Source: Salinisphaera orenii subsp. halophila YIM 95161
GTDB taxonomy: Bacteria > Pseudomonadota > Gammaproteobacteria > Nevskiales > Salinisphaeraceae
Assembly (NCBI RefSeq): GCF_003732545.1
Contig: NZ_AYKF01000132.1
Coordinates: 1-64,000 of the forward strand
DNA length: 64,000 nucleotides
Reading direction: 5' to 3'
The translations under genes were made by a program, and so were the position numbers. Below the pieces are notes generated by a model. It made no database searches and had not been told where the DNA came from. It saw nothing but the letters and a program-made list of their open reading frames with translations. Of the stretch, positions 8,672-34,416 are shown one piece after another (the first letter of the stretch is position 1; each line of letters begins with the position of its first letter).

Positions 8672-8694
8672 CGAGACAACGCTCGTCATATCGG

Positions 8695-10727: not shown

Positions 10728-10751
10728 CGACCGACGCGCGCGGTAAACGGC

Positions 10752-11891: not shown

Positions 11892-11904
11892 GGTCGTTGC
11901 GGCG

Positions 11905-16651: not shown

Positions 16652-18006
16652 GCCGCGAAACCGAGACACGCGCCTGTCCGGCGCTGCTTATCGGCGCGGC
16701 CGCCTCGGGGCAGGGCAAGACCACGGTGACGGCCGCGCTGGCACGTGCCGCCCGCCGTCGCGGCCGGCGCGTGGCGGTATTCAAGGCGGGCCCGGATTAT
16801 CTCGATCCGCAGATTCTGGCCGCGGCAGCCGGGAGTGCGGTCGAGCCGCTCGATCTGTGGATGGCCGGCGCCGACTACTGTGGCCAGCGCCTGTTCGAGG
16901 CCGCGGGAGAGGCCGATCTGATTCTGGTCGAAGGCACCATGGGCCTTCACGACGGCCAGCCGTCAAGCGCGGACTTCGCCGCCGAATTCGGTCTGCCCGT
17001 GGCCCTGGTGCTGGACTGCCGGGGCATGGCCCAGACCGCGGCCGCCGTGGCCGCCGGACTGCAGCACGCCCGCGAGGAACTGGCGGTCGCCGGCCTGGTG
17101 GCCAACGGTGTCGGCAGCGCGCGCCATGCCGACCTGATCGCCGAGGCGCTGCCCGCGGACCTGACGCTGCTGGCCTGCCTGGCCCGGGACGAGGCGGTGG
17201 CCCTGCCGCATCGGCATCTCGGCCTGGTCCAGGCGCAGGAGCAGGGCGCGTCTCTGGAGGCGGCCCTCGACGCCGCGGCCGAGCGCATCGAAAGAACATC
17301 GCTGCCGGACGCTCCGCTTCCGGTCGCTTTCACCCGAAAGCCGGCGGCCGTGCCCGGGCCGTGGCTCGCGGGCCACCGCATCGGCGTCGCCCGGGACGCC
17401 GCATTCAGCTTCGCCTATGCCGCCAACGAGCGGCTGCTGGAAAGCATGGGTACGGAACTGCGGTATTTCTCGCCGCTTGACGACACCGCGCTGCCGGACG
17501 TGGACGCGCTCTGGCTGCCCGGGGGCTATCCCGAGCTGCACGCGGCCGATCTGGCCGCCAACACCGCGATGCACGCCGCGCTGCAGGCGTTTCATCGCTC
17601 GGGCCGGCCGATGCTCGCCGAATGCGGCGGCATGCTTTATCTGCAGGACAGCCTCACCGAGCTGGACGGGCCGACGCATCGGATGGTCGGTCTGATTCCC
17701 GGCGCCGGGCGGATGCGCGCGAAGGGCGGCTGCCAGGGCATGCAGACCGCGCCGCTGCCCGAGGGCGAGATCCGCGGTCACGCCCACCATCGTTCGGCCA
17801 CTGACGACGGCGCGGTGCCGATCGCGCACGGGCGCCGGCCGCGGCATCCCGCGCCCGGTGAAGCGATCGTGCGAGATCGCGGCCTCACCGCGACCTATCT
17901 GCATCTGTTCTTCGCCTCGAATCCGGCGGCCACGGCAGCCCTGCTCGGCGGCGCCGCGCGGTCATCGACCGCCGGCGCACAGACCGCCACGACCGCCGTC
18001 TCCTGA
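16648..18006 (+). CDS. cobB: Hydrogenobyrinate/cobyrinate a,c-diamide synthase CobB
   Basis: Glutamine-dependent amidase of 452 residues that amidates the a and c side chains before cobalt insertion. Residues 1-220 carry the P-loop IGAAASGQGKTTVTAALA, FKAGPDYLDPQILA and EGTMGLHDG. Residues about 245-440 are a class I glutamine amidotransferase-like domain with nucleophile Cys in LAECGGMLYLQ near residue 326 and a C-terminal YLHLFFASNP. The start ATG at 16648 shares ATGA with the chelatase subunit. This is the B12 CobB/CbiA, not the sirtuin that shares the name. Confidence 0.94.
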   Translation: MSRETETRACPALLIGAAASGQGKTTVTAALARAARRRGRRVAVFKAGPDYLDPQILAAAAGSAVEPLDLWMAGADYCGQRLFEAAGEADLILVEGTMGLHDGQPSSADFAAEFGLPVALVLDCRGMAQTAAAVAAGLQHAREELAVAGLVANGVGSARHADLIAEALPADLTLLACLARDEAVALPHRHLGLVQAQEQGASLEAALDAAAERIERTSLPDAPLPVAFTRKPAAVPGPWLAGHRIGVARDAAFSFAYAANERLLESMGTELRYFSPLDDTALPDVDALWLPGGYPELHAADLAANTAMHAALQAFHRSGRPMLAECGGMLYLQDSLTELDGPTHRMVGLIPGAGRMRAKGGCQGMQTAPLPEGEIRGHAHHRSATDDGAVPIAHGRRPRHPAPGEAIVRDRGLTATYLHLFFASNPAATAALLGGAARSSTAGAQTATTAVS

Positions 18007-18035
18007 TTCTCCAACCGACGCTTCGGAGTCCGATC

Positions 18036-19118
18036 ATGCAACTCGACAAGATCCACGCCACGGTCGTCACCGGTTTTCTCGGCAGCGGCAAGACCACGCT
18101 TCTGTCGAACCTGATCCGCAACGCGCAGGACAAGCGCATCGCCGTGATCGTCAACGAGTTCGGCGAAATGGATATCGACGCCGAGCTGCTGCGCGGCTGT
18201 CCGCTGGCCTGTGGCGACGAGGGTGAGGGCGAAGACGGCATCTTCGAACTCGCCAACGGCTGCATCTGCTGCACGGTCGAGGAGGAGTTCGTGCCGGTGA
18301 TGAAAAAGCTCATCGAAAAGCGCGATACGATCGACCACATCGTCATCGAAACCTCCGGTCTGGCGCTGCCCAAGCCGCTGGTCCAGGCCTTCAACTGGCC
18401 CGAGATCAAGCAGCACTGCACGGTCGACTCGGTCATCGCGGTGCTCGACGGCCCGGCGATCGCGGCCGGCACCTGGGCGCACGAGCCGGAGCGCGTGGAC
18501 GCCGCCCGGCTCGCCGACGATGCCCTGGATCACGACCCAACGCTGGAGGAACTGCTCGACGATCAGCTCGCCGCCGCGGATCTGGCGATCGTGAGCAAGG
18601 CCGACCGACTGAGCGCGACCGATCGCGACACGGTCGACGAGTGGCTGCGGTCACGGCTGCCGGCGCGGGTGAAGACGCTGTTCGTGGACAACGGCGCCGC
18701 CGATCCGGAGTTGCTGACGGGGCTGGACTCGGCGACCGAAGATCGCATCGAGGCGCTCCAGACCCATCACGACGCCCACCACGCGGCCGGCGAGGCGCAC
18801 GAGCACGCCCACGACCACTTCGATTCGACCGTGATCAGCCTCGGGGCGGTCGACAGCGAGCGCCTGCTGGCGGGCATGCAGCAGCTCATCGCGGAACAGA
18901 CGATCTATCGCGCCAAGGGCTTTGCCGCCGTGGGCGACAAGCCGATGCGCCAGGTCGTCCAGGCGGTGGGCGAACGCGTCGCCCATTACTTCGATCGCCT
19001 GTGGGCGGCCGAGGAGCGCCGCGAGACGCGGCTGGTGTTCATCGGCCACGATCTCGACCGGGACCGCATCCGCGCGGTGCTGGGCGAGGCCGAGGTGGCC
19101 ACCGCCGACGCCGACTGA
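18036..19118 (+). CDS. cobW: CobW-type G3E GTPase metallochaperone
   Basis: A 360-residue SIMIBI P-loop GTPase thought to deliver Co(II) to the CobN chelatase. Walker A is GFLGSGKTTLL near residue 13. The metal-binding C-x-C-C is NGCICCTVEEEF near residue 78, and the G-motif SKADRLS is near 187. A His-rich stretch, HHDAHHAAGEAHEHAHDH near residues 245-263, is a likely extra metal site. It sits between cobB and cobN, the usual place, 29 bases after cobB. ATG 18036 follows CGGAG at proper distance. Confidence 0.93.
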   Translation: MQLDKIHATVVTGFLGSGKTTLLSNLIRNAQDKRIAVIVNEFGEMDIDAELLRGCPLACGDEGEGEDGIFELANGCICCTVEEEFVPVMKKLIEKRDTIDHIVIETSGLALPKPLVQAFNWPEIKQHCTVDSVIAVLDGPAIAAGTWAHEPERVDAARLADDALDHDPTLEELLDDQLAAADLAIVSKADRLSATDRDTVDEWLRSRLPARVKTLFVDNGAADPELLTGLDSATEDRIEALQTHHDAHHAAGEAHEHAHDHFDSTVISLGAVDSERLLAGMQQLIAEQTIYRAKGFAAVGDKPMRQVVQAVGERVAHYFDRLWAAEERRETRLVFIGHDLDRDRIRAVLGEAEVATADAD

Positions 19119-19159
19119 AACGGCGCCGCGTTCGACGCGCGTACCGGCCCGAGAGCGAC

Positions 19160-22100
19160 ATGCATCTACTGGCGGCACAACCGGGCGGCTTCGCCGACGG
19201 CGAGGGCATCATCGACCTCGACCAGTCGCCGGCCGACATGGTGATCCTGAGCGCGGCCGACGGCGTGCTGGCGATGCTGGCCGAGGCCGCCGAACGGCTG
19301 CCGGCGGAATTTCCGAGCCTGCGTCTGGCGAACTGGCGCAATCTGTCCAAGCCCGCGGCGCTGGATCTGTATCGCGACCGCACGCTGGACCGGGCCCGGG
19401 TGGTGGTCGTATCGCTGATCGGCGGCCGCGCCTACTGGCCGTACGGGGTCGAGCAGTTGACCGACTGGGCCACTGCGGCTTCCGACCGCCAGCTGATCGT
19501 GGTTCCCGGCGAGGACTACCACGACGACGAGGTCTTCGCGCTTTCGACGGTCGACTACGACACTGCCCACCGCGTGTGGCGCTACACCCGCGAGGGCGGG
19601 GCGGACAATGCCGAGGCGCTGATGCGCTTCGTCGCCGCCACCTGTCTCGACCGGGACTTCGACTGGCGCGAGCCGACAGTGCTGGCGCGGGCGCTGATCC
19701 ATCACCCCCAGCGGCTGCCGGCCACGCTCGCGGACTGGCGTGCCCGCTGGCCGGCGGGCCACGACCGGCCGGTAGCCGTCGTCGTGCTCTATCGCAGTCA
19801 TCTGCAGAACGGCAACACCGCGGTGTTCGAGGCCCTGTATGAGGTGCTCATGGCCCGGGGGCTGAACCCGCTGCCGGTGGCCGTCGCCTCGCTCAAGGAG
19901 CCCGCCTGTCTCGCCGCGATCGACGAGCTGATCGAGGCGGCCGACGCCGCGGTCGTGCTCAACACCACCGGCTTCGCGCTGCGGGCGGCGACCAACGCGG
20001 CCACGGCCTCTGACCCCGGCACCGGTCGCGCCACCTTCGCCCGCGACATCCCGGTCCTGCAGCTGATCCCGGCCAGCACCACCGAAGCGGATTGGACAGA
20101 GCAGAACGCGGGCCTGCGGTCGCGCGATCTGGCAATGTACGTGGTGCTGCCCGAGCTCGACGGCCGCATCGTCACCCGCGCGGTGGCCTTCAAGACCCTG
20201 GCGTACCGTAGCCGACGCTGCGAGATCGATGTCGTTCGCCACGAGCTGATGCCCGAACGTGCCGCTTTCGTGGCCGATCTGGCCCGACGTTGGGCCCGTC
20301 TGCAGACGCGGCCGAACGCCGACAAGCGCATCGCCCTGATCCTCGCCAACAACCCCGGCACCGACGGGCGCATCGGCAACGGCGTGGGGCTGGACACGCC
20401 GGCCTCGACGCTGGAGCTGCTGGCCGCGCTGCGCGCGGACGGCTACGACACCGGCGCGCTGCCCGACGATCCGACCGCGCTGATGGAGCACCTGCGGGCG
20501 GCGGTCTCCAACGATGCCGCGCGCAACGAGTTCAAGCCGAGTCACCAGAGTCTGGACATCGCCGTCTACGAGGACTGGTTCGCGACCCTGCCGGCCGCCA
20601 GTCAGGCCGCGGTCCTCGAGCGCTGGGGCGAACCGCGGGCGGATCCGAAACATCAGGACGGGCGTCTGCAGATCGCCGGGCTGCGCTTCGGCAACGTGTT
20701 CGTCGGGCCGCAGCCGGCGCGCGGCTTCGGGATCGACCTGGCCGCCAACTACCACGACCCCGATCTGGTGCCGCCCCACGGCTATCTGGCCTTCTACGCC
20801 TGGCTGCGCGAAGTCTATGCGGTGGATGCCGTGATCCACGTCGGCAAGCACGGCAACCTCGAGTGGCTGCCGGGCAAGAGCGTGGCGCTGTCACGACACT
20901 GCTGGCCGGACATCGCCCTCGGCCCGATGCCGCAACTCTATCCGTTCATCGTCAACGATCCGGGCGAGGGCGCCCAGGCCAAGCGCCGCAGCCAGGCCGT
21001 GATCATCGACCACATGACGCCGCCGATCGTGCGCGCGGAAAGCCACGGCGCGCTGGCCGAGCTGGAAGGCCTGGTCGACGAATACTTCGAGGCCGCGGGC
21101 CTGGATCGCCGGCGCGAGACCTATCTGCGCGATCGCATTCTGGAGATCGCCCGCCGCAGCCACGTCGCCGACGAGATCGCCGAGGACCCGAGCGACGACG
21201 AGGCGATCCTGGCCCGGCTCGACACCTATATCTGCGATCTCAAGGAAGCCCAGATCCGGGGCGGCCTGCATTGCCTCGGCCGGCTGCCGGATCGGGCGCA
21301 GCTGGCCGAGACTCTGGTCTCGCTGACCCGCATGCAGCGCGGGGAGGGCGCGACCGACCGCGGTCTGCTGCACGCCCTCGCGGCCGATCTGGAACTGGGG
21401 GATTTCGACCCGCTCCGGGTGGACGGCCAGGCCTGGGACGGGCCGAAGCCGGCGATCCTCGCCTCGCTGTCGTCTCAGGGCTGGCGCACGGATCATCACA
21501 CCCGCGAACGCCTCGAGCAGCTGGCGGTCGATCTCGTCGCCCGGGCGGTGATCGACGGCGATATGGCGGCCGTGCGGGGCCTCACCCAGACCGCGGCGCT
21601 GCTGAGCTACGTCCGCGACACGCTGCTGCCGGCGCTCACGCGCGGCGTCACCGACGAGATCGCGCACACACTCGGCGGGCTGAACGGGCGTTTCGTCCCG
21701 CCGGGGCCGAGCGGTGCGCCCACCCGCGGACGCCTGGACACGCTCCCCACCGGCCGCAACTTCTACACCGTCGACAGCCGCGCGATTCCGACGACGACGG
21801 CCTGGGAACTGGGCAAGACATCGGCCGAGGCGCTGGTCACGCGGCATCTGCAGGAGCAGGGCGACTATCCGCGCCGGATCGGGCTGTCCGTCTGGGGCAC
21901 GGCCACGATGCGCACCGGCGGCGACGACATCGCCCAGGCGTTCGCGCTGATGGGCATCAAGCCGGTCTGGGCCCCGGGCTCCAATCGTCTGGTGGACTTC
22001 GAGATCGTGCCCGCCTTCCAGCTCGGCCGGCCGCGGGTGGACGTCACCCTGCGCGTCTCCGGCTTCTTTCGCGATGCCTTCGCCGGCATCATCCGGCTGT

Positions 22101-22963
22101 TCGATGCCGCGGTGCGCCAGCTGGCCACGTTCGAGGACCCGGGCGACGGCAACACCATCCGGACGAACGTCGAGCATCGGGTGGCCGAACTTCTGGCCCA
22201 GGGCCACGACCACGACAGCGCCATGCGCCAGGCCTGCTTCCGAGTGTTCGGCTCGCGGCCCGGCACCTACGGCTCGGGCCTGAGCGAGCGGATCGACGCC
22301 GGCGACTGGGGTGACGGCGACGATCTGGCCGACGCCTACGTCGAGCGCGGCGGCTACGCCTACGGCGAACGCGAATACGGCGAGGCGGCCTTCGAGGCGT
22401 TCAACGACCGCCTCGAAGGGCTCGAGGCGGTCATCCAGAACCAGGACAACCGCGAGCACGACATCCTCGATTCCGCGGACTACTACCAGTTCCAGGGCGG
22501 CATGGCCAACGCCGCCCGCAGCCGCCGCAGCGGCCGCATGCCGACCGTCTACCACGGCGACCACAGCAACCCGGGCGCGCCGCGCATCCGCACGCTCACC
22601 GAGGAGATCAACCGCGTGATCCGGGCCCGGGTGACCAACCCCAAATGGATTGGCGCGATGCAGCGCCACGGCTACAAGGGCGCCTTCGAGATGGCCGCCA
22701 CGGTCGACTACCTGTTCGCCTACGACGCCACCACGCAGGTGGTCGCCGATTACCAGTACGCCGCCGTTTCGGATGCGCTGATCCTCGACGAGGACAACCG
22801 GGCGTTCGTGGAGGCTCACAACCCGGATGCGCTGCGCAACATGTCCGAACGCATGCTCGAAGCCATGCAGCGCGGCCTCTGGCACGAACCCGGCGCCTAT
22901 CGCGAACACATCGAGAACGCGATTCTGGAACTCGAGGAAGGCTACGAACAACCGCTCGAATAG
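19160..22963 (+). CDS. cobN: Cobaltochelatase large subunit CobN
   Basis: ATP-dependent chelatase core of 1267 residues, H-subunit/BchH family, which binds the corrin and accepts cobalt. Family landmarks include YWPYGVEQL, VVLYRSHLQNGNT, VLNTTGFAL, IGNGVGLDTPAS and HVGKHGNLEWLPGK near residue 560. Also present are NLYAxY-type blocks, the GTATMRTGGDDIAQ stretch and KWIGAMQRHGYKGAFEMAATVDYLFAYDA close to the end. The ATG at 19160 gives the normal N-terminus (MHLLAAQPGG); the upstream extension of the frame overlaps cobW. Start is 41 bases after cobW. It is the last gene of the riboswitch operon. Confidence 0.96.
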   Translation: MHLLAAQPGGFADGEGIIDLDQSPADMVILSAADGVLAMLAEAAERLPAEFPSLRLANWRNLSKPAALDLYRDRTLDRARVVVVSLIGGRAYWPYGVEQLTDWATAASDRQLIVVPGEDYHDDEVFALSTVDYDTAHRVWRYTREGGADNAEALMRFVAATCLDRDFDWREPTVLARALIHHPQRLPATLADWRARWPAGHDRPVAVVVLYRSHLQNGNTAVFEALYEVLMARGLNPLPVAVASLKEPACLAAIDELIEAADAAVVLNTTGFALRAATNAATASDPGTGRATFARDIPVLQLIPASTTEADWTEQNAGLRSRDLAMYVVLPELDGRIVTRAVAFKTLAYRSRRCEIDVVRHELMPERAAFVADLARRWARLQTRPNADKRIALILANNPGTDGRIGNGVGLDTPASTLELLAALRADGYDTGALPDDPTALMEHLRAAVSNDAARNEFKPSHQSLDIAVYEDWFATLPAASQAAVLERWGEPRADPKHQDGRLQIAGLRFGNVFVGPQPARGFGIDLAANYHDPDLVPPHGYLAFYAWLREVYAVDAVIHVGKHGNLEWLPGKSVALSRHCWPDIALGPMPQLYPFIVNDPGEGAQAKRRSQAVIIDHMTPPIVRAESHGALAELEGLVDEYFEAAGLDRRRETYLRDRILEIARRSHVADEIAEDPSDDEAILARLDTYICDLKEAQIRGGLHCLGRLPDRAQLAETLVSLTRMQRGEGATDRGLLHALAADLELGDFDPLRVDGQAWDGPKPAILASLSSQGWRTDHHTRERLEQLAVDLVARAVIDGDMAAVRGLTQTAALLSYVRDTLLPALTRGVTDEIAHTLGGLNGRFVPPGPSGAPTRGRLDTLPTGRNFYTVDSRAIPTTTAWELGKTSAEALVTRHLQEQGDYPRRIGLSVWGTATMRTGGDDIAQAFALMGIKPVWAPGSNRLVDFEIVPAFQLGRPRVDVTLRVSGFFRDAFAGIIRLFDAAVRQLATFEDPGDGNTIRTNVEHRVAELLAQGHDHDSAMRQACFRVFGSRPGTYGSGLSERIDAGDWGDGDDLADAYVERGGYAYGEREYGEAAFEAFNDRLEGLEAVIQNQDNREHDILDSADYYQFQGGMANAARSRRSGRMPTVYHGDHSNPGAPRIRTLTEEINRVIRARVTNPKWIGAMQRHGYKGAFEMAATVDYLFAYDATTQVVADYQYAAVSDALILDEDNRAFVEAHNPDALRNMSERMLEAMQRGLWHEPGAYREHIENAILELEEGYEQPLE

Positions 22964-23552
22964 GTGCGCCACGAGAACAGGCGCTGCCGGCCACGCGGAA
23001 AGACATTGTCCGCATCCGATCGTCAGGCCAGCTCAGACCAACAGGGTGTTGAGCAACCGCATCGGACCACGTCATCCGGTCCATGTCAGCGGCAAGCGCC
23101 TGACTTGGTCGCAGACTCGTCGCCGTTCGCGAACTCCCGTTCGCTGTTCAACCTCGACATCACAGACGGCGGGCTCGTCGCGCCCGATAACACCCAGTGA
23201 TTCGACGCGATAACCATCGGAGTGCGTCTTCACGATGCGCTCGCGGACACGCACGCGGTGACGCAATCGATAACATCAACGAGCGTCAGGCCTGACTGGA
23301 CAACAGGCTCGCTCGTTCGAGCTAGAGCGAAGAGGTCGTGGCCGATGCCCTGAGTGTGGGCGTCGAAACGCGCCGTTGCCACGCGGATACCAGCAGTGAT
23401 GACCTTCACACTGAATGCGCGTCGCAATAGTGGAGTGGCAGCCGAAGAACTAGCGATGTGCTTCACATCTGCTCAGCCCGACACAATATTTAACATAATA
23501 TACATTATGCGTATTACATAGCCTAGCGAAGCGAGCGCGCCGTGCGCCTTCT
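22964..23552. other. Gene-poor stretch after cobN with a short inverted repeat
   Basis: I see no intact gene in these 590 bases. Two short minus-strand frames (about 23072-23266 and 23230-23466) abut in different frames and read like one eroded protein, but no family is recognisable. Base composition falls here compared with the B12 cluster. At 23494-23509 there is CATAAT-ATAC-ATTATG, an inverted repeat in an AT-rich patch that may be a promoter or operator element. The stretch may mark the left edge of an accessory region. Confidence 0.4.
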
Positions 23553-23561
23553 GTGAATTGG

Positions 23562-23975
23562 CTACCGAGGACGCAGACTGCCCGTCTGCAAATAACGACC
23601 ATAGCGGTCGCAGTGAAACTCCGCGTTGATCCGGGTCGTTTCCGTAGGCGTCATGCGCTGATTCCTGCGCCACTCGGCGCATGTGTGTCGCAATTGTTTA
23701 CCTTTGGGTGTCTGGGCTCGGCGATTCTCGGCCTGACGTTGGCGCTGGCGGGCTTGGGCCTGTCGTTCAGTTGCCTGGGCGTCGCGGTATTGGCGACTAC
23801 TGGTCACTGACGACTCCGGCGTGCTGTCGAACTCGATGGCGTCACTAATGCTGGACATCAGTCCGCCGATCACGACCGCGCCTAACAGCATTGCGATCAA
23901 CCTCATCGCGATCCAGCCAATGACAAGGCCGCCGGCGACAGCGAACGCCATCCGAACGTAGTTGATGTCGCGCAT
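23562..23975 (-). CDS. Small membrane protein of unknown function
   Basis: Unrecognised 137-residue protein. Residues about 9-45 are hydrophobic (VRMAFAVAGGLVIGWIAMRL then AMLLGAVVIGGLMSS), giving one long or two short membrane helices. Residues about 65-95 are Gln/Arg/Ala-rich (QATERQAQARQRQRQAENRR) and could form a coiled coil. The C-terminus holds two Cys (HTCAEW, EFHCDRY) spaced like a small domain or disulphide pair. An AGGG lies 8 bases before the ATG. It follows the fic gene on the same strand with about 160 bases between, so the two might be co-transcribed. Nothing in it suggests a specific role. Confidence 0.55.
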   Translation of the reverse strand: MRDINYVRMAFAVAGGLVIGWIAMRLIAMLLGAVVIGGLMSSISDAIEFDSTPESSVTSSRQYRDAQATERQAQARQRQRQAENRRAQTPKGKQLRHTCAEWRRNQRMTPTETTRINAEFHCDRYGRYLQTGSLRPR

Positions 23976-24133
23976 GGTTGCCCTATCCGGTCCCCATAGC
24001 GATATCGGCTAGCGTCACAGCCGCTGAACCGTTGGTGGTTACATCGAAGCGATAAACGCGAGCAGCGCGGCGATCGTCCATTGGTCCATCAGCGCGCCGC
24101 CGAGCAGTGGTACGTATGGAGGGCAGTGCCGCA

Positions 24134-25330
24134 TCAGTTCACCAGCCCCGCCATCTTCGGGAATAGATAATCCAGGTAGGTGGCGGGAAATGCCGGTCGA
24201 ACCGGACCTCGTTGATTCGAGCTGACGAGCAAGCCTTCTTTAAGGAGTTCGCTAACCACCTGTCTCCCCATACGCTCTTTGTATCCGGTACGTCGGCCGG
24301 CCTCCGCTCGGGTCAACTCGCCCTCAATGAACGCCGCCTTAAGTACGCCTTCGGCGCCGCGGTCGAGCGCGGGTACGTCCGGAAGTGCCCGCTCGCTGGC
24401 CTGACGAACCAGATATTCGACCCGCCGCTTGTAGCCCTCGATGCCAAGTACGTCGGCCATGTAGTCGACCTGGTCCACGCAGGTATCCAGGAAAAACTTG
24501 CAGAACGCATACAGCGCCCGTTCGCTGCGCTGCCCGCGCCCATCGAGAGCGCCTTGTCGCGGCGCATCCGCATCCGCCAAGTGACTGTAGTAGCGCTGGC
24601 GGGCACGCGCGAGCCCGCGTGAGAGGCTCCAGATCGCGGGCTGTTCCAGCACACAATCGATATAGACCTCGCTGAAAAGGCGCGCGACGCGGCCGTTGCC
24701 ATCGACAAAGGGATGCAGAAAGGCCAGCCGATGATGTGCGGCAGCGGCCGCTATCAGGCCCTGGTCACCGCGCAGGCTCGCTCGATCAGGACGATACGCG
24801 TCAGCAAAACAGGCCAGTGCCGCGCTCAGCTGATCATGGCTGATTGCGACATGTCTTGCGACGCGCACATCGGTCGTTCGCAGCTCGCCGGGTCGAACGA
24901 CAACGCTTTGATTGCCGTTGGAATCAGAAATGCGCCGTTCCGACTCGGGTGCCGTCTCAAAGATGAGCTGGTGGATCCGGCGAATGAAATCGGGATCGGT
25001 TGGACGCTCGTGGCTGCCGGCTTCATCGCGTGCGGCGATGATCTGCTGTGCCTCACGCAGCGCCAGAGAAATCATCACCCCCGGGGTTTGCATCTGCTCA
25101 CCAGCGCGCACCGCCCGATCGACCTCGACCGGATGGGTGTTCTGCCCTTCGATCAAATTCGAATAGTAGGTATTGACCATCCGAAGCATGTCCTGCAACG
25201 CACCCCGTGTCGCAGCCGGCAAGCCGCTCAACGCCGCCGATTTCTGTGCCAATTGATACGCCCTGGACGCGAGTTCGCGTGAGGGGTCGGACGGCATCCA
25301 CGGTGCAAGCCCGTACGTCAGGTCAGTCAT
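24134..25330 (-). CDS. fic: Fic family protein (AMPylator), class II, with C-terminal winged helix
   Basis: A 398-residue Fic enzyme, predicted to transfer AMP from ATP to a protein hydroxyl. The active motif is LHPFVDGNGRVARL near residue 212. The N-terminal inhibitory helix motif (S/T)xxxE(G/N) is present as S57-N-L-I-E61-G62, which marks class II Fic proteins that are autoinhibited. Residues about 325-398 look like a winged helix-turn-helix (LTRAEAGRRTGYKERMGRQVV, LLKEGLLVSS), suggesting DNA binding. A 16-base perfect palindrome lies 10 bases before the start codon and may be its own operator. The target protein is unknown. No antitoxin gene is evident next to it; the inhibitory helix is internal. 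Confidence 0.9.
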   Translation of the reverse strand: MTDLTYGLAPWMPSDPSRELASRAYQLAQKSAALSGLPAATRGALQDMLRMVNTYYSNLIEGQNTHPVEVDRAVRAGEQMQTPGVMISLALREAQQIIAARDEAGSHERPTDPDFIRRIHQLIFETAPESERRISDSNGNQSVVVRPGELRTTDVRVARHVAISHDQLSAALACFADAYRPDRASLRGDQGLIAAAAAHHRLAFLHPFVDGNGRVARLFSEVYIDCVLEQPAIWSLSRGLARARQRYYSHLADADAPRQGALDGRGQRSERALYAFCKFFLDTCVDQVDYMADVLGIEGYKRRVEYLVRQASERALPDVPALDRGAEGVLKAAFIEGELTRAEAGRRTGYKERMGRQVVSELLKEGLLVSSNQRGPVRPAFPATYLDYLFPKMAGLVN

Positions 25331-25340
25331 TGATTCATAA

Positions 25341-25356
25341 GGCGAAATATTTCGCC
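25341..25356. promoter_or_regulatory. 16-base perfect palindrome before fic
   Basis: GGCGAAATATTTCGCC is identical to its reverse complement and lies 10 bases upstream of the fic start codon, in a clearly AT-rich stretch. Its place over the expected ribosome-binding and promoter-proximal region fits a repressor site, perhaps for the Fic winged helix itself. Imperfect copies of TGCCGGTT/TGCCG follow at 25372-25400 and 25472-25505. Confidence 0.55.
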
Positions 25357-26025
25357 GATTATGCCAAATTTTTGCCGGTTCTTCTGCCGCTCTAACGGAA
25401 AATATAATGGCGTTTAGATTTATGATTATTAATAATTAAATCGAATATTTTCGACGCAAACCATCGAGATAAAAGCCGGTTTCTGCCGGTTAGTATGCCG
25501 CTTATAGGACTTTATACGCGGCACGACCTCTCAATGACCACGTTTACTGGAGCCCGAGCATCTCGCATGAGGCCCTGATCATCCAGCCGGATGCAGACTC
25601 TCTTGCCACGCCGCCCGCGCCCAGGGCGACGGCCGCGTGAGAATTGATCTCCAACACTCTCAGCCGGTGGCGGTTGCCATCGACATGAGTGACCTCTTCG
25701 CCGGCCGTGATCAGCAGACCGGGCGAGCCATACAGCAGCGTAACGGCGCAAGCGAGGCGACAGGCGGTCGAACCGGCCGTTCGCTTGCGCGATATTGGAG
25801 AACGCAGGTCGTCGCCATGCGACTGCCTCAAACCGCATGAAATCCGCTTACGGCAATATTTCCAACGCATTGCAGGCCCGAGGTGGCGAATCGTCAGTAA
25901 CGGGCAAACCTGATAGGTTCGATCCAAAAGGCATAAATAAGCCTTTTGTGCGTTTTCCCGATGCCCAAGCCGTCGGCCGAGAACCGTATCCATGCGACAA
26001 CCGGGGTGGATCGATTCACCCGTCC
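25357..26025. other. AT-rich then degenerate intergenic stretch between fic and the second monooxygenase
   Basis: No intact gene seen. Bases 25357-25510 are strongly AT-rich (TTATGATTATTAATAATTAAAT) and probably hold the fic promoter. Bases 25544-25800 in the minus direction read as fragments such as GEEVTHVDGNRHRLRVLEIN that shift frame into KRVCIRLDDQGLMRDAR, suggesting a decayed gene I cannot identify. A stem-loop lies at 25926-25947. Confidence 0.4.
25926..25947. other. AAAAGGC/GCCTTTT stem-loop upstream of the second monooxygenase
   Basis: A 7-bp stem AAAAGGC / GCCTTTT with an 8-base AT loop, followed by GTGCGTTTT. It resembles a weak intrinsic terminator or attenuator placed about 90 bases before the gene start, so it may end leftover upstream transcription or form part of the leader. 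Confidence 0.35.
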
Positions 26026-26035
26026 AAAGGAGGAG
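26026..26035 (+). promoter_or_regulatory. Strong ribosome-binding site deciding the start of monooxygenase copy 2
   Basis: AAAGGAGGAG ends 2 bases before ATG 26038, containing the near-complete anti-SD match GGAGG. It fixes the start at 26038 although the frame is open from 25795. Confidence 0.75.
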
Positions 26036-26037
26036 AT

Positions 26038-27849
26038 ATGGGCTCAACCCAGCGTGAGGCGCGTGCGCTTACCGAGTGGCTCGCCGCATTCGAGACTGCG
26101 CTCGGCAACAACGACGTCGACGCTGTCAGTGCGCTGTTCGCAGATGATTGCTACTGGCGCGATCTGGTCGTGTTCACCTGGAATATCAAGACGCTGGAGG
26201 GCCGCGATTCGATTCGCGACATGCTGGGCGCGATGCTGGGCAACGTGCGCCCCCATGACTTCACGATCGACGGCGAGGCCACCGAACTCGAGGGCGTCGT
26301 GGAAGGCTGGTTTACCTTCAACACCGGCGTAGCCCATGCACAGGGCCATGTCCGCCTGATCAATGGCAAGGCGTGGACCCTGCTCACCGCCATCACGGAT
26401 CTCGTCGATCACCCCGAAGCCACGGGCCATCACCGGCCTCTCGGCACCGTGCACCGGATCGAGCCCGAGCGCCCGAACTGGCTCGAGCGCCAGAAAGAGC
26501 ATCAGGCGCGCCTCGGCCATTCCGAGCAGCCCTATTGCGTGATCGTCGGCGGTGGTCAGGCCGGCATCGCGCTGGCGGCGCGTCTCAAACAGCTGGACGT
26601 ACCGACGCTGGTCGTCGAGCGCAACGAACGGGCCGGCGATTCCTGGCGTAACCGTTACCGATCGCTGTGCCTGCACGACCCGGTCTGGTATGACCATCTG
26701 CCTTATATTCGTTTCCCCGAGAACTGGCCGGTGTTCACGCCCAAGGACAAGATGGGCGATTGGCTGGAGATGTACACCAAGGTGATGGAGCTCGACTACT
26801 GGAGCGCCACGGAATGTAAAAGTGCCCAATACGACGAAACACGCGAGGAATGGCGCGTTGACGTCGAGTTCACCGGCGACGGCGAACGCCAGACGCACAC
26901 GCTGCGGCCCAAGCACCTGATCATGGCCACTGGCGCACTGGGCATGCCCAATGTGCCGGAGATCCCGGGGGCGAGCGATTTTAACGGCACGCTCCACCAC
27001 TCGAGTGAGCACCCCGGCGGCCAGGGGTACGCCGGCAAGCGCTGCATCGTGTTGGGCGCCAACAACTCGGCCCACGATATCGCGGCCGATCTGTGGGCGA
27101 ACGGGGCCGACGTGACCATGATTCAGCGGTCGTCGACACACGTAGTGAAGTCGGATTCGTTCTGCGAACTGTCCCTGGGTGCACTCTATTCCCAGGAAGC
27201 CACCGAGAATGGTCTGGATGTCGATCAGGCCGACATGCTTTTCGCATCGACGCCCTATGCGGTTCTGCCCCAGATGGCCGGCGGGATGGGCGCACTGCTT
27301 CGCGAGCGGGACGCCGATTTTTATGAGCGTCTGGAACAGACCGGGTTCGTGCTCGATTTCGGCGGCGACGACACGGGCCTGCTGATGAAAGCGCTTCGGC
27401 GCGGCGGCGGCTACTACATCGATGTCGGCGCTTCGGAGCTCCTGATCGAGGGCAAGATCGGCTTGCGCAGCCGCGTGAGTATTGACCACATCAAGTCGGA
27501 TTCCGTGGTCCTCACGGATGGTGAGGAGCTGCCGGCGGATGTGATCATCCTCGCGACCGGGTACGGCTCGATGAATAACTTCGCGGCCGAACTGATCTCG
27601 CAGGAGGTGGCCGACCGCGTCGGCAAATGCTGGGGCCTGGGGTCGGATACACCCAAGGATCCCGGCCCCTGGGAAGGCGAACTGCGCAACATGTGGAAAC
27701 CCACGCAGCAACCCGGGCTGTGGTTTCATAGCGGCAATCTGCACCTGTCGCGTCACTACTCGCGTTATCTCGCACTCCAACTCAAGGCGCGAATGGAAGG
27801 CATCGATACCCCGGTGTATGGCATTCCCGAGGTTCACCATCTGGAATGA
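26038..27849 (+). CDS. NTF2/SnoaL-fused flavin-containing monooxygenase (copy 2)
   Basis: A 603-residue paralog of the protein at 8-1810, with the same domain order. An NTF2-like domain (FADDCYWRDLVVFTWNIKT) comes first, an FAD motif IVGGGQAGIALAARL near residue 172, an NADPH motif VLGANNSAHD near 340, and the same C-terminal GLWFHSGNLHLSRHYS. Residues around the flavin are conserved between copies, whereas stretches such as SIPYGIMADFQK versus STPYAVLPQMAG differ, so substrates may differ. It stands alone between a fic gene and a decayed SRAP gene. The strong RBS and the stem-loop leader suggest its own promoter. Its base use is slightly less GC-rich at third positions than copy 1. The substrate is unknown. 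Confidence 0.88.
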   Translation: MGSTQREARALTEWLAAFETALGNNDVDAVSALFADDCYWRDLVVFTWNIKTLEGRDSIRDMLGAMLGNVRPHDFTIDGEATELEGVVEGWFTFNTGVAHAQGHVRLINGKAWTLLTAITDLVDHPEATGHHRPLGTVHRIEPERPNWLERQKEHQARLGHSEQPYCVIVGGGQAGIALAARLKQLDVPTLVVERNERAGDSWRNRYRSLCLHDPVWYDHLPYIRFPENWPVFTPKDKMGDWLEMYTKVMELDYWSATECKSAQYDETREEWRVDVEFTGDGERQTHTLRPKHLIMATGALGMPNVPEIPGASDFNGTLHHSSEHPGGQGYAGKRCIVLGANNSAHDIAADLWANGADVTMIQRSSTHVVKSDSFCELSLGALYSQEATENGLDVDQADMLFASTPYAVLPQMAGGMGALLRERDADFYERLEQTGFVLDFGGDDTGLLMKALRRGGGYYIDVGASELLIEGKIGLRSRVSIDHIKSDSVVLTDGEELPADVIILATGYGSMNNFAAELISQEVADRVGKCWGLGSDTPKDPGPWEGELRNMWKPTQQPGLWFHSGNLHLSRHYSRYLALQLKARMEGIDTPVYGIPEVHHLE

Positions 27850-29106
27850 ACGCTCGCCAGCGTGAGCGTGTCAACTTGCAGCCGCAATTCGTGCCAGGGT
27901 AGCCCGCAGGCAAAGTGCCCGACGGGAGCAATGGCCCAAGATGGCATGGCCTGAAAGGTTTGGCGGTGGCAGTGCGAATGTGCCGCTACCGCCAGCAACT
28001 GCGCACGAGCAACGGCGGCGCCGGCTGGTCGCTCAAATAGGCCAAACAGCCATGCGTCGTTCTTCGCCGGGCTGCCGACACCCGGGGCAAGATGGGCCAA
28101 TTCTCGTCGGCCTTCTAGCGGCTCTCGGCGAGCACCTCATGCAGGTTGTTGGCTGACTGTCGGGATCCAGCCATTGCCTACCGCCTGTCAGCGTAAGCGC
28201 CTGCGGTTGGCGGTCGCGGATATGGGATATGATCGAGATCGGCGTTCGGAACACCGGTCAGAATCGCAAATGTCACCTGCCCGCTGACTTGATGGTCCTT
28301 GGACAGACTTGTGGGGCTTGCTCCAGATCCCGGCAAAGAAGCACGGGTTGGCCTCCTCCGGTCGTATCAGGTGTGGTTGCTTACCCCCTACTCCGCTGCC
28401 ACTCGATCCAATAGTTCGCCGGCAGGTACGCACGCTGATGCACGAAGGCGCGCACCAACAGCCTCCTTTCGTGCGCGGTTTCACTGCGCGCTTGATGGGC
28501 GACAACTTCGTATAGATCGCTTAGTTCGGGATGAACTCCATCAGCTCGCCACTCGATCTGGCATGTGGCAGAGCCAAACTTGCCCTGACACCGCTATACG
28601 ATATCAACAGCCTCCACCCGTTTTTCCTACGGCAAAAACGGTCTGCCGAGCGAGCATGCGCAAGAGAGCGGCGCCAGCGAAAGCGTGGACAGGACTGTGA
28701 CGTGTTTGCCTAATACCCGGCCGCAGATCGGTTGTCGGGTCAGAGCGAGCACGAACGGGCGCTGCAGGAAGACAGCGCGGTTGCGTTCAAGCCCTGTCCA
28801 AGCCGATAAGCGTACCTTTTGATACGCCCCCGCTCGCGCCGTATCTCTGATCGCCCATCCTGCCAGGCAAGGCAGTGACGATTTCTCAGGCGCTGAACCG
28901 CCGCAAGACGGCAGAACGAGGGGCCGACCGGCTTTGAACGTACGGTCGCAACCACGCTCCTCCCCGGTTTGCGATTCGAGTTCGAGTTCTGGTTCGAGAG
29001 ATTCGCGCGGATCAGCCGTTGGCGTCAGGCGATGCCGCAACGCACGGTCGCCCATACAGGGACTTGAGTCGGCCGAATGACCGGAGGCTGGCCACGGCGC
29101 CTATAA
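27850..29106. other. Intergenic stretch apart from the SRAP remnant
   Basis: Outside the SRAP remnant (28050-28740) I see no supported gene. Bases 27850-28050 and 28740-29106 contain only short frames without recognisable families. The right end carries the SOS promoter region of imuA. Confidence 0.4.
28050..28740 (-). pseudogene. Decayed SOS response-associated peptidase (SRAP/YedK-HMCES) gene
   Basis: Read on the minus strand across several frames, this stretch reproduces the SRAP family in order. It begins CGR near 28730, then ARSETAHERRLLVRAFVHQR at 28430-28495 and LPANYWIEWQ. After a frameshift come GKQPHLIRPEEANPCFFAGIWSK (28310-28385) and, after another, QVTFAILTGVPNADLDHI (28229-28281). 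It ends LTLTGGRQWLDPDSQP and ADENWPILPRVS. Multiple indels and an in-frame stop make it non-functional. Intact SRAP shields abasic sites by a Cys2 cross-link; here the initiating MCGR is also eroded. It lies divergently beside the imuA-imuB-dnaE2 cassette, where SRAP genes often occur. Confidence 0.75.
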
Positions 29107-29122
29107 CTGTATATAAATACAG
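29107..29122. promoter_or_regulatory. LexA (SOS) box of the imuA-imuB-dnaE2 operon
   Basis: CTGTATATAAATACAG matches the gammaproteobacterial LexA consensus CTGT-N8-ACAG with the preferred AT core. It ends two bases before the imuA ATG, so a bound LexA would cover the transcription or translation start. Confidence 0.9.
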
Positions 29123-29124
29123 TC

Positions 29125-29907
29125 ATGCGATCCGCGCGACCCATCAAGACACAGCGCCGCCATTCGTTGCCGGGCGACACGAGCCAGTGGCAGCGACTGG
29201 GGCTGCGCCGGGCCAGTCAGCAGGCGCGTCAGTCCATCGTGGGCAGCAGCTGGAGTGCCCTCGATCGCCTGCTGCCGGGTGGCGGCTATCCGGCCCACGC
29301 CGTGACGGAGTTTCTGGTCGAGACGGCCGGGACGGGCGAATTCAGTCTGCTCCTGACGTGTCTTGGGCAACGGCTGAGTGCGCATCCCGACAGCCGAATC
29401 GGTCTGGTCGCCCCGCCCCGCCCGCTCAATGCCCCGGCGCTGGCGGCCCAGGGGCTGGATATCCGGCGCCTGCCGCTGATCGCCGGCGGGAATGACGGTG
29501 AATGTGTCTGGGCCATCGAGCAGATGGCGCGCTCGGGCGGCTTCGTGGGCTTCGTGTTCTGGTCTGACGGCCTGACGAACACGGCCCTGCGCAAGCTGCA
29601 ACTGGCCGCCGAGAACGCCGCCTGCCCGATCTTCGTCTATCGCGATCTGGCCTGCGCCGGGCAGCGCTCGCCGGCGGCCCTTCGGCTTGCGATCACCCGG
29701 GGCGACCGAGGCCAGCGGATCGAGGTCCGCAAATGTCGCGGTCCGGCCGGCGCCCGCCTCGACGGTCTGCAGCCGGGTCCTGACCGGCCCTGGATCTTCA
29801 TGCCCGAGTCGTCGCCCGCGACCCGAGGATTCGAAACCCATGCCGAGGCCTGCAATGACGACGGCACTGTGGCTCGCTCTGCGTTTCCCCCACTGGCCCC
29901 TCGATAG
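29125..29907 (+). CDS. imuA: Mutasome accessory protein ImuA
   Basis: RecA-like accessory factor of 260 residues in the DNA-damage mutasome with ImuB and DnaE2. The core SALDRLLPGGGYPAHAVTEFLVETAGTGEFSLLL aligns with ImuA, where a Walker-like loop lacks the GKT of RecA. Later VFWSDGLTNTALRKLQLAAE and CPIFVYRD are typical. It is the first gene of the operon and is preceded directly by a LexA box; no ribosome-binding site fits between the box and the ATG, so translation may be leaderless. It overlaps imuB by 53 bases. Confidence 0.86.
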   Translation: MRSARPIKTQRRHSLPGDTSQWQRLGLRRASQQARQSIVGSSWSALDRLLPGGGYPAHAVTEFLVETAGTGEFSLLLTCLGQRLSAHPDSRIGLVAPPRPLNAPALAAQGLDIRRLPLIAGGNDGECVWAIEQMARSGGFVGFVFWSDGLTNTALRKLQLAAENAACPIFVYRDLACAGQRSPAALRLAITRGDRGQRIEVRKCRGPAGARLDGLQPGPDRPWIFMPESSPATRGFETHAEACNDDGTVARSAFPPLAPR

Positions 29908-31306
29908 CCGCACCGGGGAAACGGCCGACGGTTCGTGGCTGGTGGTCGAGACCCGCGGCAGCCGCTGCTTCGTGGTCGCGGCCACGGCCGATGCGGTGGC
30001 CGCCGGTGTGCGCCATGGCATGGACCTGGCGGATGCACGACTGCGACAGCCGGATGCCGGCGTGCTGTCGCGTCGTCCGGCCGGCGAGCGGGCCGCCCTG
30101 ACGCGTCTGGCCGGCTGGGCCTGGCAATACAGCGATCACGTGCACCTCGCCTGCGCCGGCGAGCCGCCATACGACACCGCCGGCGGCAGCCATCTCGTGT
30201 TCGAGATCGGGGCCAGTCTGCGTCTGTTCGGCGGCCGGCGCGCGCTGCGCCGGCGCATCGCGTTGGATCTGAAGCGCTTCGGCCATCGCCATGTAGCCGG
30301 TATCGACAGCACGCCGCAGGTCGCCCTGGCACGAACCCGCGCGCCCCGATCCCGGGCGCGGATAGAGCGGGCGGCACTGCCGCTGTCCTGTCTGGCCCTC
30401 GACGCGGGCACGCTCGCCTCGCTGCAGGCCAGCGGCTTCCGAACGCTCGGCGAACTGCTCGCGCTGCCCCCGGCCACCCTGATGCGGCGTTACGGCGCCG
30501 CCCTGCTCGATGATCTGGACCGGCTCCAGGGCCACAGGCCGCACGGCCTGCCCCTGTATCGACTGCCCGCCCGCTATCGCACCCGTCACGAACTCACCGG
30601 CGCCGTGGTCACGACCCAGGGGCTGGTCTTCGTGCTGCGGCGTGTTCTCGCCGATCTGGCCGCGTTCCTGCGCGGCGCCGACGCCGCCATCCAGCATCTG
30701 CGGCTCATCCTCATCCACGAGGACGATAGCCGCACTCGACTGGATCTGCGCCTGAACAGCCCGGCCCACGACGCCGCGCACTTCGAGCGGGTGGTTAACG
30801 ATCGCCTGACCCGGGTCGAGCTGACGGCCCCGGTGGTCGAGATCGGCCTGGCCAGCGAACGCCTGCGACGGCGCGAGCAGGCCCAGAGCCAGCTCTTGTC
30901 AGAGGCCGCCCGGCCGGGCGTCGAGCCGGGCGCATGGCCGGCCGTGCTCGACCGGCTGCGCGCCCGGCTCGGGCACGACGCCGTCGGGTGGCTGCACGCG
31001 CCGGACGCGCATCGCCCCGAAAAAGCCAGCGCCACAGGCGATCGGCCGCCGATCGAAGCGCCGACCGGCAACGCCATGCGGCCGCTGTGGCTCTACGCGC
31101 ATCCCCGGCCGATCGCGGCACCGGAGACGCTGACCTTCATCGCCGGCCCCGAGCGCATCGAAAGCGGCTGGTGGGACGCGCAGGCCGTGCGCCGCGACTA
31201 TTATCGGGCCCGCGACCGGCGCGGCCGCCTGCTCTGGATCTATCGCGATCTCGACGCGGCCCGCGGCGGTCCGTCGCCCTACTATCTGCACGGCCTGTTC
31301 GGATGA
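29855..31306 (+). CDS. imuB: Y-family polymerase-like protein ImuB
   Basis: Catalytically dead Y-family polymerase homolog of 483 residues that links DnaE2 to the sliding clamp during SOS mutagenesis. The start reads LWLALRFPHWPLD, so the first catalytic Asp pair of active DinB/UmuC enzymes is absent, as expected for ImuB. The finger/palm region holds RCFVVAATADAVAAGVRHGMDLADAR, then the helix-hairpin-helix part GFRTLGELLALPPATLMRRYG and a little-finger part. The C-terminal RDYYRARDRRGRLLWIYRD is the ImuB tail. ATG 29855 follows a GAGG; upstream frame belongs to imuA. It shares ATGA with dnaE2. Confidence 0.92.
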   Translation: MTTALWLALRFPHWPLDSRTGETADGSWLVVETRGSRCFVVAATADAVAAGVRHGMDLADARLRQPDAGVLSRRPAGERAALTRLAGWAWQYSDHVHLACAGEPPYDTAGGSHLVFEIGASLRLFGGRRALRRRIALDLKRFGHRHVAGIDSTPQVALARTRAPRSRARIERAALPLSCLALDAGTLASLQASGFRTLGELLALPPATLMRRYGAALLDDLDRLQGHRPHGLPLYRLPARYRTRHELTGAVVTTQGLVFVLRRVLADLAAFLRGADAAIQHLRLILIHEDDSRTRLDLRLNSPAHDAAHFERVVNDRLTRVELTAPVVEIGLASERLRRREQAQSQLLSEAARPGVEPGAWPAVLDRLRARLGHDAVGWLHAPDAHRPEKASATGDRPPIEAPTGNAMRPLWLYAHPRPIAAPETLTFIAGPERIESGWWDAQAVRRDYYRARDRRGRLLWIYRDLDAARGGPSPYYLHGLFG

Positions 31307-34300
31307 GCGCAACGCACGCCGAGCTGTGCTGCCTGTCCGCGTTTTCCTTCCAGCGCGGCGCCTCGACCCCGGAGGAGCTCGTCGCCCGGGCCGCGGCACT
31401 CGGCTACGAGGCCATCGCGCTGACCGACGAGGCCAGCCTGGCCGGTGCCGTACGCGCCCTGCAGACCGCCGAAAAGATCGGCATCAAGCTCATTCTCGGG
31501 GCGCGCTTCACCTGCAGCGACGGCGTCACGCTGGGTGTCCTGGTGCGCAACCGCCACGGCTACACTCGTCTCTGCCAGTTGATCACCACCGCCCGGCGAC
31601 GGGCGGACAAGGGCGGCTATCGCATCGAACGGGCGGACTTCGAGGCCATGGATCTCGACGACTGCTGGCTGATCGTCCTGCCCGAGCACGACACCCCGCC
31701 CGGGCCCGCGCTGCACGCCACCCTCGCCTGGCTGGCCACGCGCTACCCGGGTACCGCCCGGATCGCCCTGGCGCTGCATCGACGGGTTCGTGATACGGCC
31801 CACAGGGATACGCTGGCCGCCCTGCGCGCCCAGTACGGCCTGCCGCTGATCGCCACGGGCGATGTCCACATGCACAGCCGCGCGCGGCGTGCCCTGCAGG
31901 ATGTATTCACCGCCCTGCGCCACGGCACCACGGTCGCCGCGGCCGGCACCCGGCTGGCCGGCAACGGCGAACGCTACCTGCGTCCGGTCGCCACCCTGCA
32001 CCGGCTCTATCCGGCCGCAGCGCTGGCGGCCGCGCGCCGGGTGGCCGCGGACTGCGATTTCTCGCTGCGCGAGATCCACTACGACTACCCGGCGGAACTG
32101 GTGCCGGCCGGCGAGACCGCCCTGTCGCATCTGCGTCGTCTGGTCGAACGCGGCAGCGCGCGACGCTGGCCGCAGGGGCCGAGCCCGCGCCTGCGCCGGC
32201 AGATCGAGCACGAACTGGCGCTGATCGGCGAAATGAACTATCCGCACTATTTCCTCACCGTGCACGACATCGTCGCTCATGCCCGCAGCCGGGACATTCT
32301 CTGCCAGGGCCGCGGCTCGTCGGCCAATTCGGTGGTCTGCTTCTGCCTGGGCATCACCGAGGTCGATCCAGCCCGCCACGAGCTGCTGTTCGAGCGCTTC
32401 ATCTCCCGCGATCGCGACGAACCGCCGGACATCGACGTGGACTTCGAGCACGAGCGCCGCGAGGAGGTCATCCAGTACATCTACCGCAAGTACGGCCGCG
32501 GCCGGGCCGCGCTCGCGGCCACCGTCATCCATTACCGGCCGCGCAGCGCCATGCGCGACGTGGGCCGGGCCATGGGTCTGAGCGCGGACGGCATCGACAC
32601 CCTGGCCTCGGCGCTATCCAGCCGCAGCGCCGACGGCACGCTGGCTGCGCAGCTGGCCGAGCGGGGGATCGACATCGGCCAGCGCAGCCTCGAACGCATC
32701 CTCTGGCTGGTGGACGACCTGATCGGCTTCCCGCGCCATCTGTCCCAGCACGTGGGCGGTTTCGTGCTCTCCGACCGGCCGCTCGAGGAACTGGTGCCGG
32801 TGGAGAACGCGGCGATGGCCGAACGCACCATCATCCAGTGGGACAAGGACGATCTTGAGGCCGTCGGCCTGCTCAAGATCGACGTGCTGGCGCTGGGCAT
32901 GCTCACCTGCATCCGTCGCTGTCTGGACCTCGTCGAAGCGAGCCGCGGCGTGCGCTGGACGATGGCGGAGATTCCCGGCGGCGATACCGCCACCTACGAC
33001 ATGATCAGCGCCGCCGATACGGTGGGGGTGTTCCAGATCGAGTCCCGCGCCCAGATGAGCATGCTGCCGCGGCTCCGGCCCCGGCGTTTCTTCGACCTGG
33101 TGGTGGAGGTCGCCATCGTGCGGCCGGGCCCGATCCAGGGCGGCATGGTCCACCCCTATCTGCTCAACCGGGCACGGGATCCCGCCGAGATCGAATATCC
33201 CAGCGAGGCGCTGCGCGGCGTGCTCGAACGCACCCACGGCGTGCCCATCTTTCAGGAGCAGGTGATGAAGATCGCCATGGTCGCGGCCGACTTCAGCGCT
33301 GCGGAAGCCGACGGCCTGCGCCGTTCGATGGCGGCCTGGAAGAAGAAAGGGGGCCTGGAGCCCTGGCGCGAACGCCTGAAGCGCGGCATGCGCGACAACG
33401 GCTATGCCGACGAATTCGCCGACCGCATCTTCGAACAGATCAAGGGCTTCGGCAGCTACGGCTTTCCCGAGTCCCACGCGGTGAGTTTCGCCCTGCTGGT
33501 CTATGTCTCGTCGTATCTGAAATGCCACGAGCCGGCCGCCTTCGCGGCCGCCCTGCTCAACAGCCAGCCGATGGGCTTCTATGCGCCTGCCCAGATCGTG
33601 GCCGATGCCCGCCGCCACAGCGTCGCGGTACGCCCGACCGACGTGCGCCATTCGCACGTCGACTGCAGCCTGGAGGCCGAGCCCGGCGTCGCCGCGGCCG
33701 CCGGCGATCGGCCGGCGCTGCGCCTCGGACTGCGGCTGGTGCGCGGCCTGGCCCCGGCCGCGGCCGAACGCATCGCCGCCGCACGCGCCGAGGCGCCCTT
33801 TCAGAGCGTCGCCGACCTGGTCCAGCGGGCACGGCTCGACCGCCGCGCCCGCAACGCCCTCGCCCGCGCCGATGCCCTGCGCGGACTGGCCGGACACCGC
33901 CACAGCGCCCAGTGGCAGATCGCCGCCACCGGCGTCCAGGACGATCTGTTCGCCGGCCTGGATGCGCCCGAGCCGTCGGTGACGCTGGCCGAGCCGCGCG
34001 AAGCCGCCGACATCGTCGCCGACTACGCCAGCACCGGCCTGACCCTGCGCCGCCATCCGATGGCCCTGCTGCGCGACCGGCTGCGCGCCACCGGCGTGCT
34101 CTGCGCGGCCGACTTCAACCGTCAGGCCGACGGCCGCAACGTGCATGTGGCCGGGATCGTGACCATGCGCCAGCGCCCCGGCAGCGCCAAGGGCACCACG
34201 TTCGTCACGCTGGAGGACGAGACCGGACAGGTGAATCTGATCATCCATGCCCGCCTGCTGGCGCGCTATCGGGTGGCGGTCGTGAGCGCCCGGCTGCTGC

Positions 34301-34416
34301 GGGTGCTCGGCGTCATGCAGCGCAACGGGCCGGTCACCCACTGCGTGGCGCGGCATATCATCGACGACACTCCGCTGCTGGGCCAGCTCGACGTGCGGTC
34401 ACGGGATTTTCACTGA
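31303..34416 (+). CDS. dnaE2: Error-prone DNA polymerase DnaE2 (ImuC)
   Basis: C-family polymerase of 1037 residues that performs translesion synthesis in the SOS mutasome. It has an N-terminal PHP domain (AELCCLSAFSFQRGAS, GYEAIALTDE, ATGDVHMHSR). The palm follows with CQGRGSSANSVVCFCLGITEVDP and PDIDVDFEHERREEV, whose Asp residues form the active site, and KGFGSYGFPESHAVSFALLVY. A helix-hairpin-helix and an OB fold (VHVAGIVTMRQRPGSAKGTTFVTLEDE) close the protein. Length matches DnaE2 rather than the about 1160-residue DnaE1. ATG 31303 sits in an ATGA with the imuB stop; the frame upstream belongs to imuB. Confidence 0.95.
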   Translation: MSATHAELCCLSAFSFQRGASTPEELVARAAALGYEAIALTDEASLAGAVRALQTAEKIGIKLILGARFTCSDGVTLGVLVRNRHGYTRLCQLITTARRRADKGGYRIERADFEAMDLDDCWLIVLPEHDTPPGPALHATLAWLATRYPGTARIALALHRRVRDTAHRDTLAALRAQYGLPLIATGDVHMHSRARRALQDVFTALRHGTTVAAAGTRLAGNGERYLRPVATLHRLYPAAALAAARRVAADCDFSLREIHYDYPAELVPAGETALSHLRRLVERGSARRWPQGPSPRLRRQIEHELALIGEMNYPHYFLTVHDIVAHARSRDILCQGRGSSANSVVCFCLGITEVDPARHELLFERFISRDRDEPPDIDVDFEHERREEVIQYIYRKYGRGRAALAATVIHYRPRSAMRDVGRAMGLSADGIDTLASALSSRSADGTLAAQLAERGIDIGQRSLERILWLVDDLIGFPRHLSQHVGGFVLSDRPLEELVPVENAAMAERTIIQWDKDDLEAVGLLKIDVLALGMLTCIRRCLDLVEASRGVRWTMAEIPGGDTATYDMISAADTVGVFQIESRAQMSMLPRLRPRRFFDLVVEVAIVRPGPIQGGMVHPYLLNRARDPAEIEYPSEALRGVLERTHGVPIFQEQVMKIAMVAADFSAAEADGLRRSMAAWKKKGGLEPWRERLKRGMRDNGYADEFADRIFEQIKGFGSYGFPESHAVSFALLVYVSSYLKCHEPAAFAAALLNSQPMGFYAPAQIVADARRHSVAVRPTDVRHSHVDCSLEAEPGVAAAAGDRPALRLGLRLVRGLAPAAAERIAAARAEAPFQSVADLVQRARLDRRARNALARADALRGLAGHRHSAQWQIAATGVQDDLFAGLDAPEPSVTLAEPREAADIVADYASTGLTLRRHPMALLRDRLRATGVLCAADFNRQADGRNVHVAGIVTMRQRPGSAKGTTFVTLEDETGQVNLIIHARLLARYRVAVVSARLLRVLGVMQRNGPVTHCVARHIIDDTPLLGQLDVRSRDFH

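Follow-up and report, generated by a model that had tools for sequence, protein, structure and literature searches.

We report here the remnant of a gene of the SRAP family (YedK/HMCES) next to the imuA-imuB-dnaE2 mutasome locus of Salinisphaera, an identity confirmed by sequence comparison over positions 28044-28548, minus strand, of the window (the whole stretch of 64,000 nucleotides that was analysed, from contig NZ_AYKF01000132.1). The remnant is very probably an ordinary decayed pseudogene, that is, a redundant and probably imported SRAP copy in a variable block, and the neighbouring mutasome genes are intact. A preliminary description had proposed an eroded SRAP gene at this site, spread over at least three reading frames, and had taken from it a loss of abasic-site shielding with a possible effect on mutation outcome. 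The eroded gene is borne out by the results below; the two consequences are not.

When the minus strand of 28147-28503 is read through its stops (two TGA and one TAA), it matches the SRAP profile PF02586 at positions 75-187 of 214 with 27.8 bits (E 2.8e-6), above the curated cut-off of 27.1 bits. By blastn, positions 28045-28548 share 72% DNA identity with the intact SRAP gene of another Salinisphaera, G009:C2 (E 5e-64 to 1.3e-63); for 28030-28740 as a whole, aligned identity is just 383/636. With intact SRAPs as tblastn queries, all three minus frames were matched in successive, overlapping pieces, in agreement with the preliminary description. That description had suggested a frameshift-aware search, for example against the SRAP profile. 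A frameshift-tolerant alignment to the G009:C2 protein scores 488 vs 30-48 for six base shuffles of the same DNA; it covers residues 61-222, with 110/157 aligned residues identical, and needs six frame changes while crossing two stops. The corresponding alignment to G005:C16 (98/156 identical, again six frame changes and two stops) scores 422 vs 30-40 for six shuffles. In a DNA tree the remnant and G009:C2 form a clade with a support of 0.978. No single open frame spans the roughly 220 residues of a SRAP protein: the best, 28188-28505, reaches 16.2 bits, under the SRAP cut-off, and three further single open frames have no SRAP profile match.

SRAP residues 1-60 have no significant alignment in the remnant, by either blastn or frameshift-tolerant alignment, and an N-terminal Met-Cys with the Cys2 nucleophile was not found. 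The SRAP motifs listed in the preliminary description lie within the recognisable part of the remnant with the exception of CGR, three residues in the unaligned N terminus whose codons (28725-28717) are near the expected place of Cys2, with no ATG before them at 28728-28717. Because residues 1-60 do not align significantly, this triplet is indistinguishable from chance and is not evidence for the family. The active site of YedK comprises Glu105, His160 and a conserved Asn, according to PMC9436759, and the catalytic His, 160 in YedK, is 165 in our alignment of four SRAPs. In the remnant the Glu is kept in WIEW, the Asn codon falls inside a frame change and the His varies with the alignment path; a supposed replacement of the catalytic His was dropped, since it depends on that path. 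The likeness to the SRAP family (PF02586; E. coli YedK, human HMCES) is thus the profile match above the cut-off, and the difference is the lack of a single open frame and of a recognisable N terminus. For these last two reasons no Cys2-dependent cross-link is expected of the remnant, which makes no SRAP protein.

Table. Features of the window at and around the SRAP remnant (positions in the window)
Feature	Position	Strand	Evidence
5.3-kb block not present at this site in S. orenii MK-B5	23516..28807	.	DNA alignment, GC
Small hypothetical protein	23562..23975	-	31% identical counterpart at same spot and in same orientation in S. orenii
Fic/DOC-family protein	24134..25330	-	PF02661 over cut-off; all NCBIfam matches below cut-off
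Flavin monooxygenase (FMO)-like gene	25945..27849	+	S. orenii match (94% DNA, 97% protein) on different contig
SRAP pseudogene, recognisable part (about residues 57-222)	28044..28548	-	Profile, blastn, tblastn, frameshift-tolerant alignment
Expected site of SRAP N terminus	28549..28728	-	Unrecognisable except three-residue CGR; no significant alignment
LexA-box-like palindrome CTGT-N8-ACAG just before imuA	29107..29122	+	Pattern search; present in S. orenii too
imuA, intact frame, start approximate	29125..29907	+	NF033429, 156.2 bits vs cut-off 150
imuB, intact frame	29846..31306	+	Conserved in 12/12 genus relatives searched; IMS 20.7 bits vs cut-off 23.2 (below)
dnaE2, error-prone DNA polymerase, intact frame, start approximate	31267..34416	+	NF004225, 1439.9 bits vs cut-off 939

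The genome (3.79 Mb, 153 contigs, completeness 98.66%) has two intact SRAP genes at other sites, both found by the profile search: C122 (168.8 bits) and C46 (145.4 bits). Both keep Cys2, Asn75, Glu105 and the IH-motif His, all four invariant in the four-SRAP alignment; for C46 this alignment begins at the MCGR Met, which we assume to be the true start and which lies 30 residues inside the longest open frame. The C122 protein has matches among solved YedK chains (E 3.6e-29). A loss of SRAP function in the organism is therefore not indicated, and the proposed loss of abasic-site shielding is not supported. The remnant DNA itself, searched against its own genome, had no match but itself.

The intact gene on C122 lies within 3,147 bases (G000:C122, L089, 2581-5727) that are 99.87% identical to G009:C11. 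Since the ImuB proteins of these two genomes, G000 and G009, are only 57% identical, the 3.1-kb stretch common to both contigs is, judged from its sequence, a recent transfer. A Mutator-family transposase is encoded on the same 12-kb contig as the C122 SRAP. A 54-base unit, repeated six times in tandem and with a consensus that by eye contains a 16-base palindrome, is found at 2372-2694 of C122, at the edge of the transferred stretch.

The block in which the remnant lies is situated between imuA and the gene for CobN, and holds the small hypothetical gene, the Fic-family gene, the FMO-like gene and the remnant. In the sister species Salinisphaera orenii MK-B5 (G012), whose ImuB shares 99% identity with that of the window over 486 residues, a single contig aligns with window positions 28808-32000 at 96.9% and 15294-23515 at 98%, and 754 bases of other sequence lie between the two. 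The GC content, about 68-73% for cobN and the imu genes, falls to about 54-65% in the block. This drop is no guide to the block ends, because the flanking intergenic DNA common to S. orenii is also low in GC (60% at 22800-23499). The small hypothetical gene has only 31% identity to its S. orenii counterpart vs 97-98% in the flanks. A search of seven short frames from the block and its surroundings, at E up to 0.1, gave only the 16.2-bit SRAP match and one between the 137-aa hypothetical protein and a family of viral antigens; both are below cut-off, and the latter is judged to be chance. The FMO-like gene of S. orenii is on another contig and is followed there by a recQ-like helicase. In G009, an FMO-like gene lies 2.7 kb before imuB, and a methyladenine-glycosylase-like repair gene (G009:C22, L087, 5954-6622) between the FMO-like gene and imuA, with no SRAP match there. 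By profile search, the only SRAP of S. orenii is of the C46 type.

In our reading, the remnant is a pseudogene from a class of SRAP genes whose location varies from one Salinisphaera genome to another. A relative of the G009:C2 gene probably arrived with, or in, the variable block between cobN and imuA and, redundant beside two intact SRAP genes, decayed by indels, stops and unconstrained substitutions, with imuA-imuB-dnaE2 remaining intact next to it. Because no transposase or integrase was found among the block frames scanned, and the repeat search of the block gave only short, weak pairs with no clear flanking repeat or element boundary, arrival by horizontal transfer is something that we infer; redundancy as the cause of decay, likewise, is presumed. 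Loss of the block in S. orenii, rather than gain here, could also explain the difference between the two, and the FMO-like gene ahead of imuB in G009 likewise counts against our reading. It is conceivable, if unlikely, that the cobN-imuA gap is a landing site for SRAP and other cargo, and that the mutasome-adjacent SRAP was discarded as the travelling C122 took over.

The distribution of SRAP genes across the genus is uneven. A SRAP match is present in 8 of 14 genomes, including the one studied here, and absent from 6 of the 13 with imuB (G001, G002, G006, G007, G010 and G011), three of which, G007, G010 and G011, are only 81-87% complete. Neighbouring frames (at least 100 aa, no more than 5 kb away) were compared across 14 SRAP loci of the genus; apart from two orthologous pairs, the recent 3.1-kb transfer and a single small neighbour family, none was shared. 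Most SRAP genes of the genus have differing neighbours, which fits a moving gene. The nearest intact relative of the remnant, G009:C2, adjoins a plasmid-type KfrA_N gene, and relatives of its SRAP are on 1,703 of 72,556 plasmid records, all under 60% identical. At 5532-11935 of G009:C8 (L100), an intact SRAP gene lies near a protein with a JetD_C domain (Wadjet-type) and a 1,363-aa protein without a Pfam match.

Of the mutasome genes, imuB is present in all 12 genus relatives searched. We name ImuB from its place between imuA and dnaE2 and from this conservation, as its IMS match is under the cut-off. The window contains one LexA-box-like site vs 0.57 expected by chance, and the 13-kb locus of S. 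orenii also contains one, at the same place before imuA, vs 0.07 expected. SRAP genes in imuA-imuB-dnaE2 neighbourhoods of other bacteria are described in PMC3765255, and for this reason the neighbourhood itself is not new and a former SRAP-mutasome partnership here is possible. In the view of the preliminary description, a SRAP protein that formerly partnered ImuA-ImuB-DnaE2 would have been lost, with altered mutation outcome under stress. In keeping with such a loss are the adjacency and divergent layout of the remnant and imuA as well as the reported neighbourhoods, which resemble the present one in placing SRAP next to the same three genes; the remnant differs in lying on the other strand, in being broken and in having no counterpart in 11 related loci. 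We consider this explanation very unlikely. Two intact SRAP genes remain, and a SRAP match upstream of imuA was seen in 0 of 11 relatives (tblastn, E 1e-6, two SRAP queries, at least 3 kb readable upstream), a search that a strongly eroded SRAP could escape. In the twelfth relative, G007, the contig begins inside imuA. Nor was there a SRAP match in the stretches fetched from five more distant named loci (L135-L139). Because of these empty upstream regions, the six of 13 imuB-bearing genomes without a SRAP match (three of the six under 90% complete) and the sister species without the block at this spot, the SRAP-mutasome link here looks accidental. With the paralogues intact and the adjacency not conserved, the suggested change in mutation outcome is not supported, and we infer that the remnant would have no effect on mutagenesis.

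Decay as a pseudogene is also reflected in the substitutions. At sites invariant in an outgroup of seven genus SRAP genes (G003:C32, G004:C2, G005:C16, G008:C1, G009:C8, G013:C45 and G000:C122), the remnant lineage changed at 26/112, 23/124 and 6/23 of codon positions 1, 2 and 3, vs 3/112, 3/124 and 3/23 at the same sites in its intact sister G009:C2; few sites are available at the third position, and the counts take in the N-terminal part, which aligns poorly. The outgroup left out the divergent G004:C6, the C46-type pair (G000, G012) and the broken or partial copies G003:C37 and G005:C21; G009:C11, the same protein as C122, was in the alignment and tree only. Changes in the remnant are about equal across the three codon positions, as expected of sequence without selection on the protein. 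It is highly improbable that an intact SRAP gene was broken by assembly or sequencing errors, as might be imagined in a draft genome of 153 contigs: there are six separate frame changes plus stops within 0.5 kb, the N-terminal third is unrecognisable, the substitutions are without codon-position bias and the neighbouring genes have intact frames. Another SRAP gene of the genus, G003:C37 (L102, about 5566-6206), is split over two frames, and the syntenic copy G005:C16 is intact; this could be another broken SRAP of the genus, or a mistake in the draft.

A new role for the remnant, such as that of a regulatory or small-peptide region upstream of imuA, might be suggested by its occupying the gap of roughly 1.3 kb between the FMO-like gene and imuA, but is scarcely credible given that no Rfam family reached its gathering score in 22900-29300 and that the search for the remnant, which scored 19 of 41 candidates, reported no match in the sister species.

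In conclusion, the significance of this remnant is small, as a plain example of pseudogene decay. It also carries a caution: repair is not necessarily lost when a gene beside a repair operon is broken, since paralogues elsewhere in a genome must be checked first.
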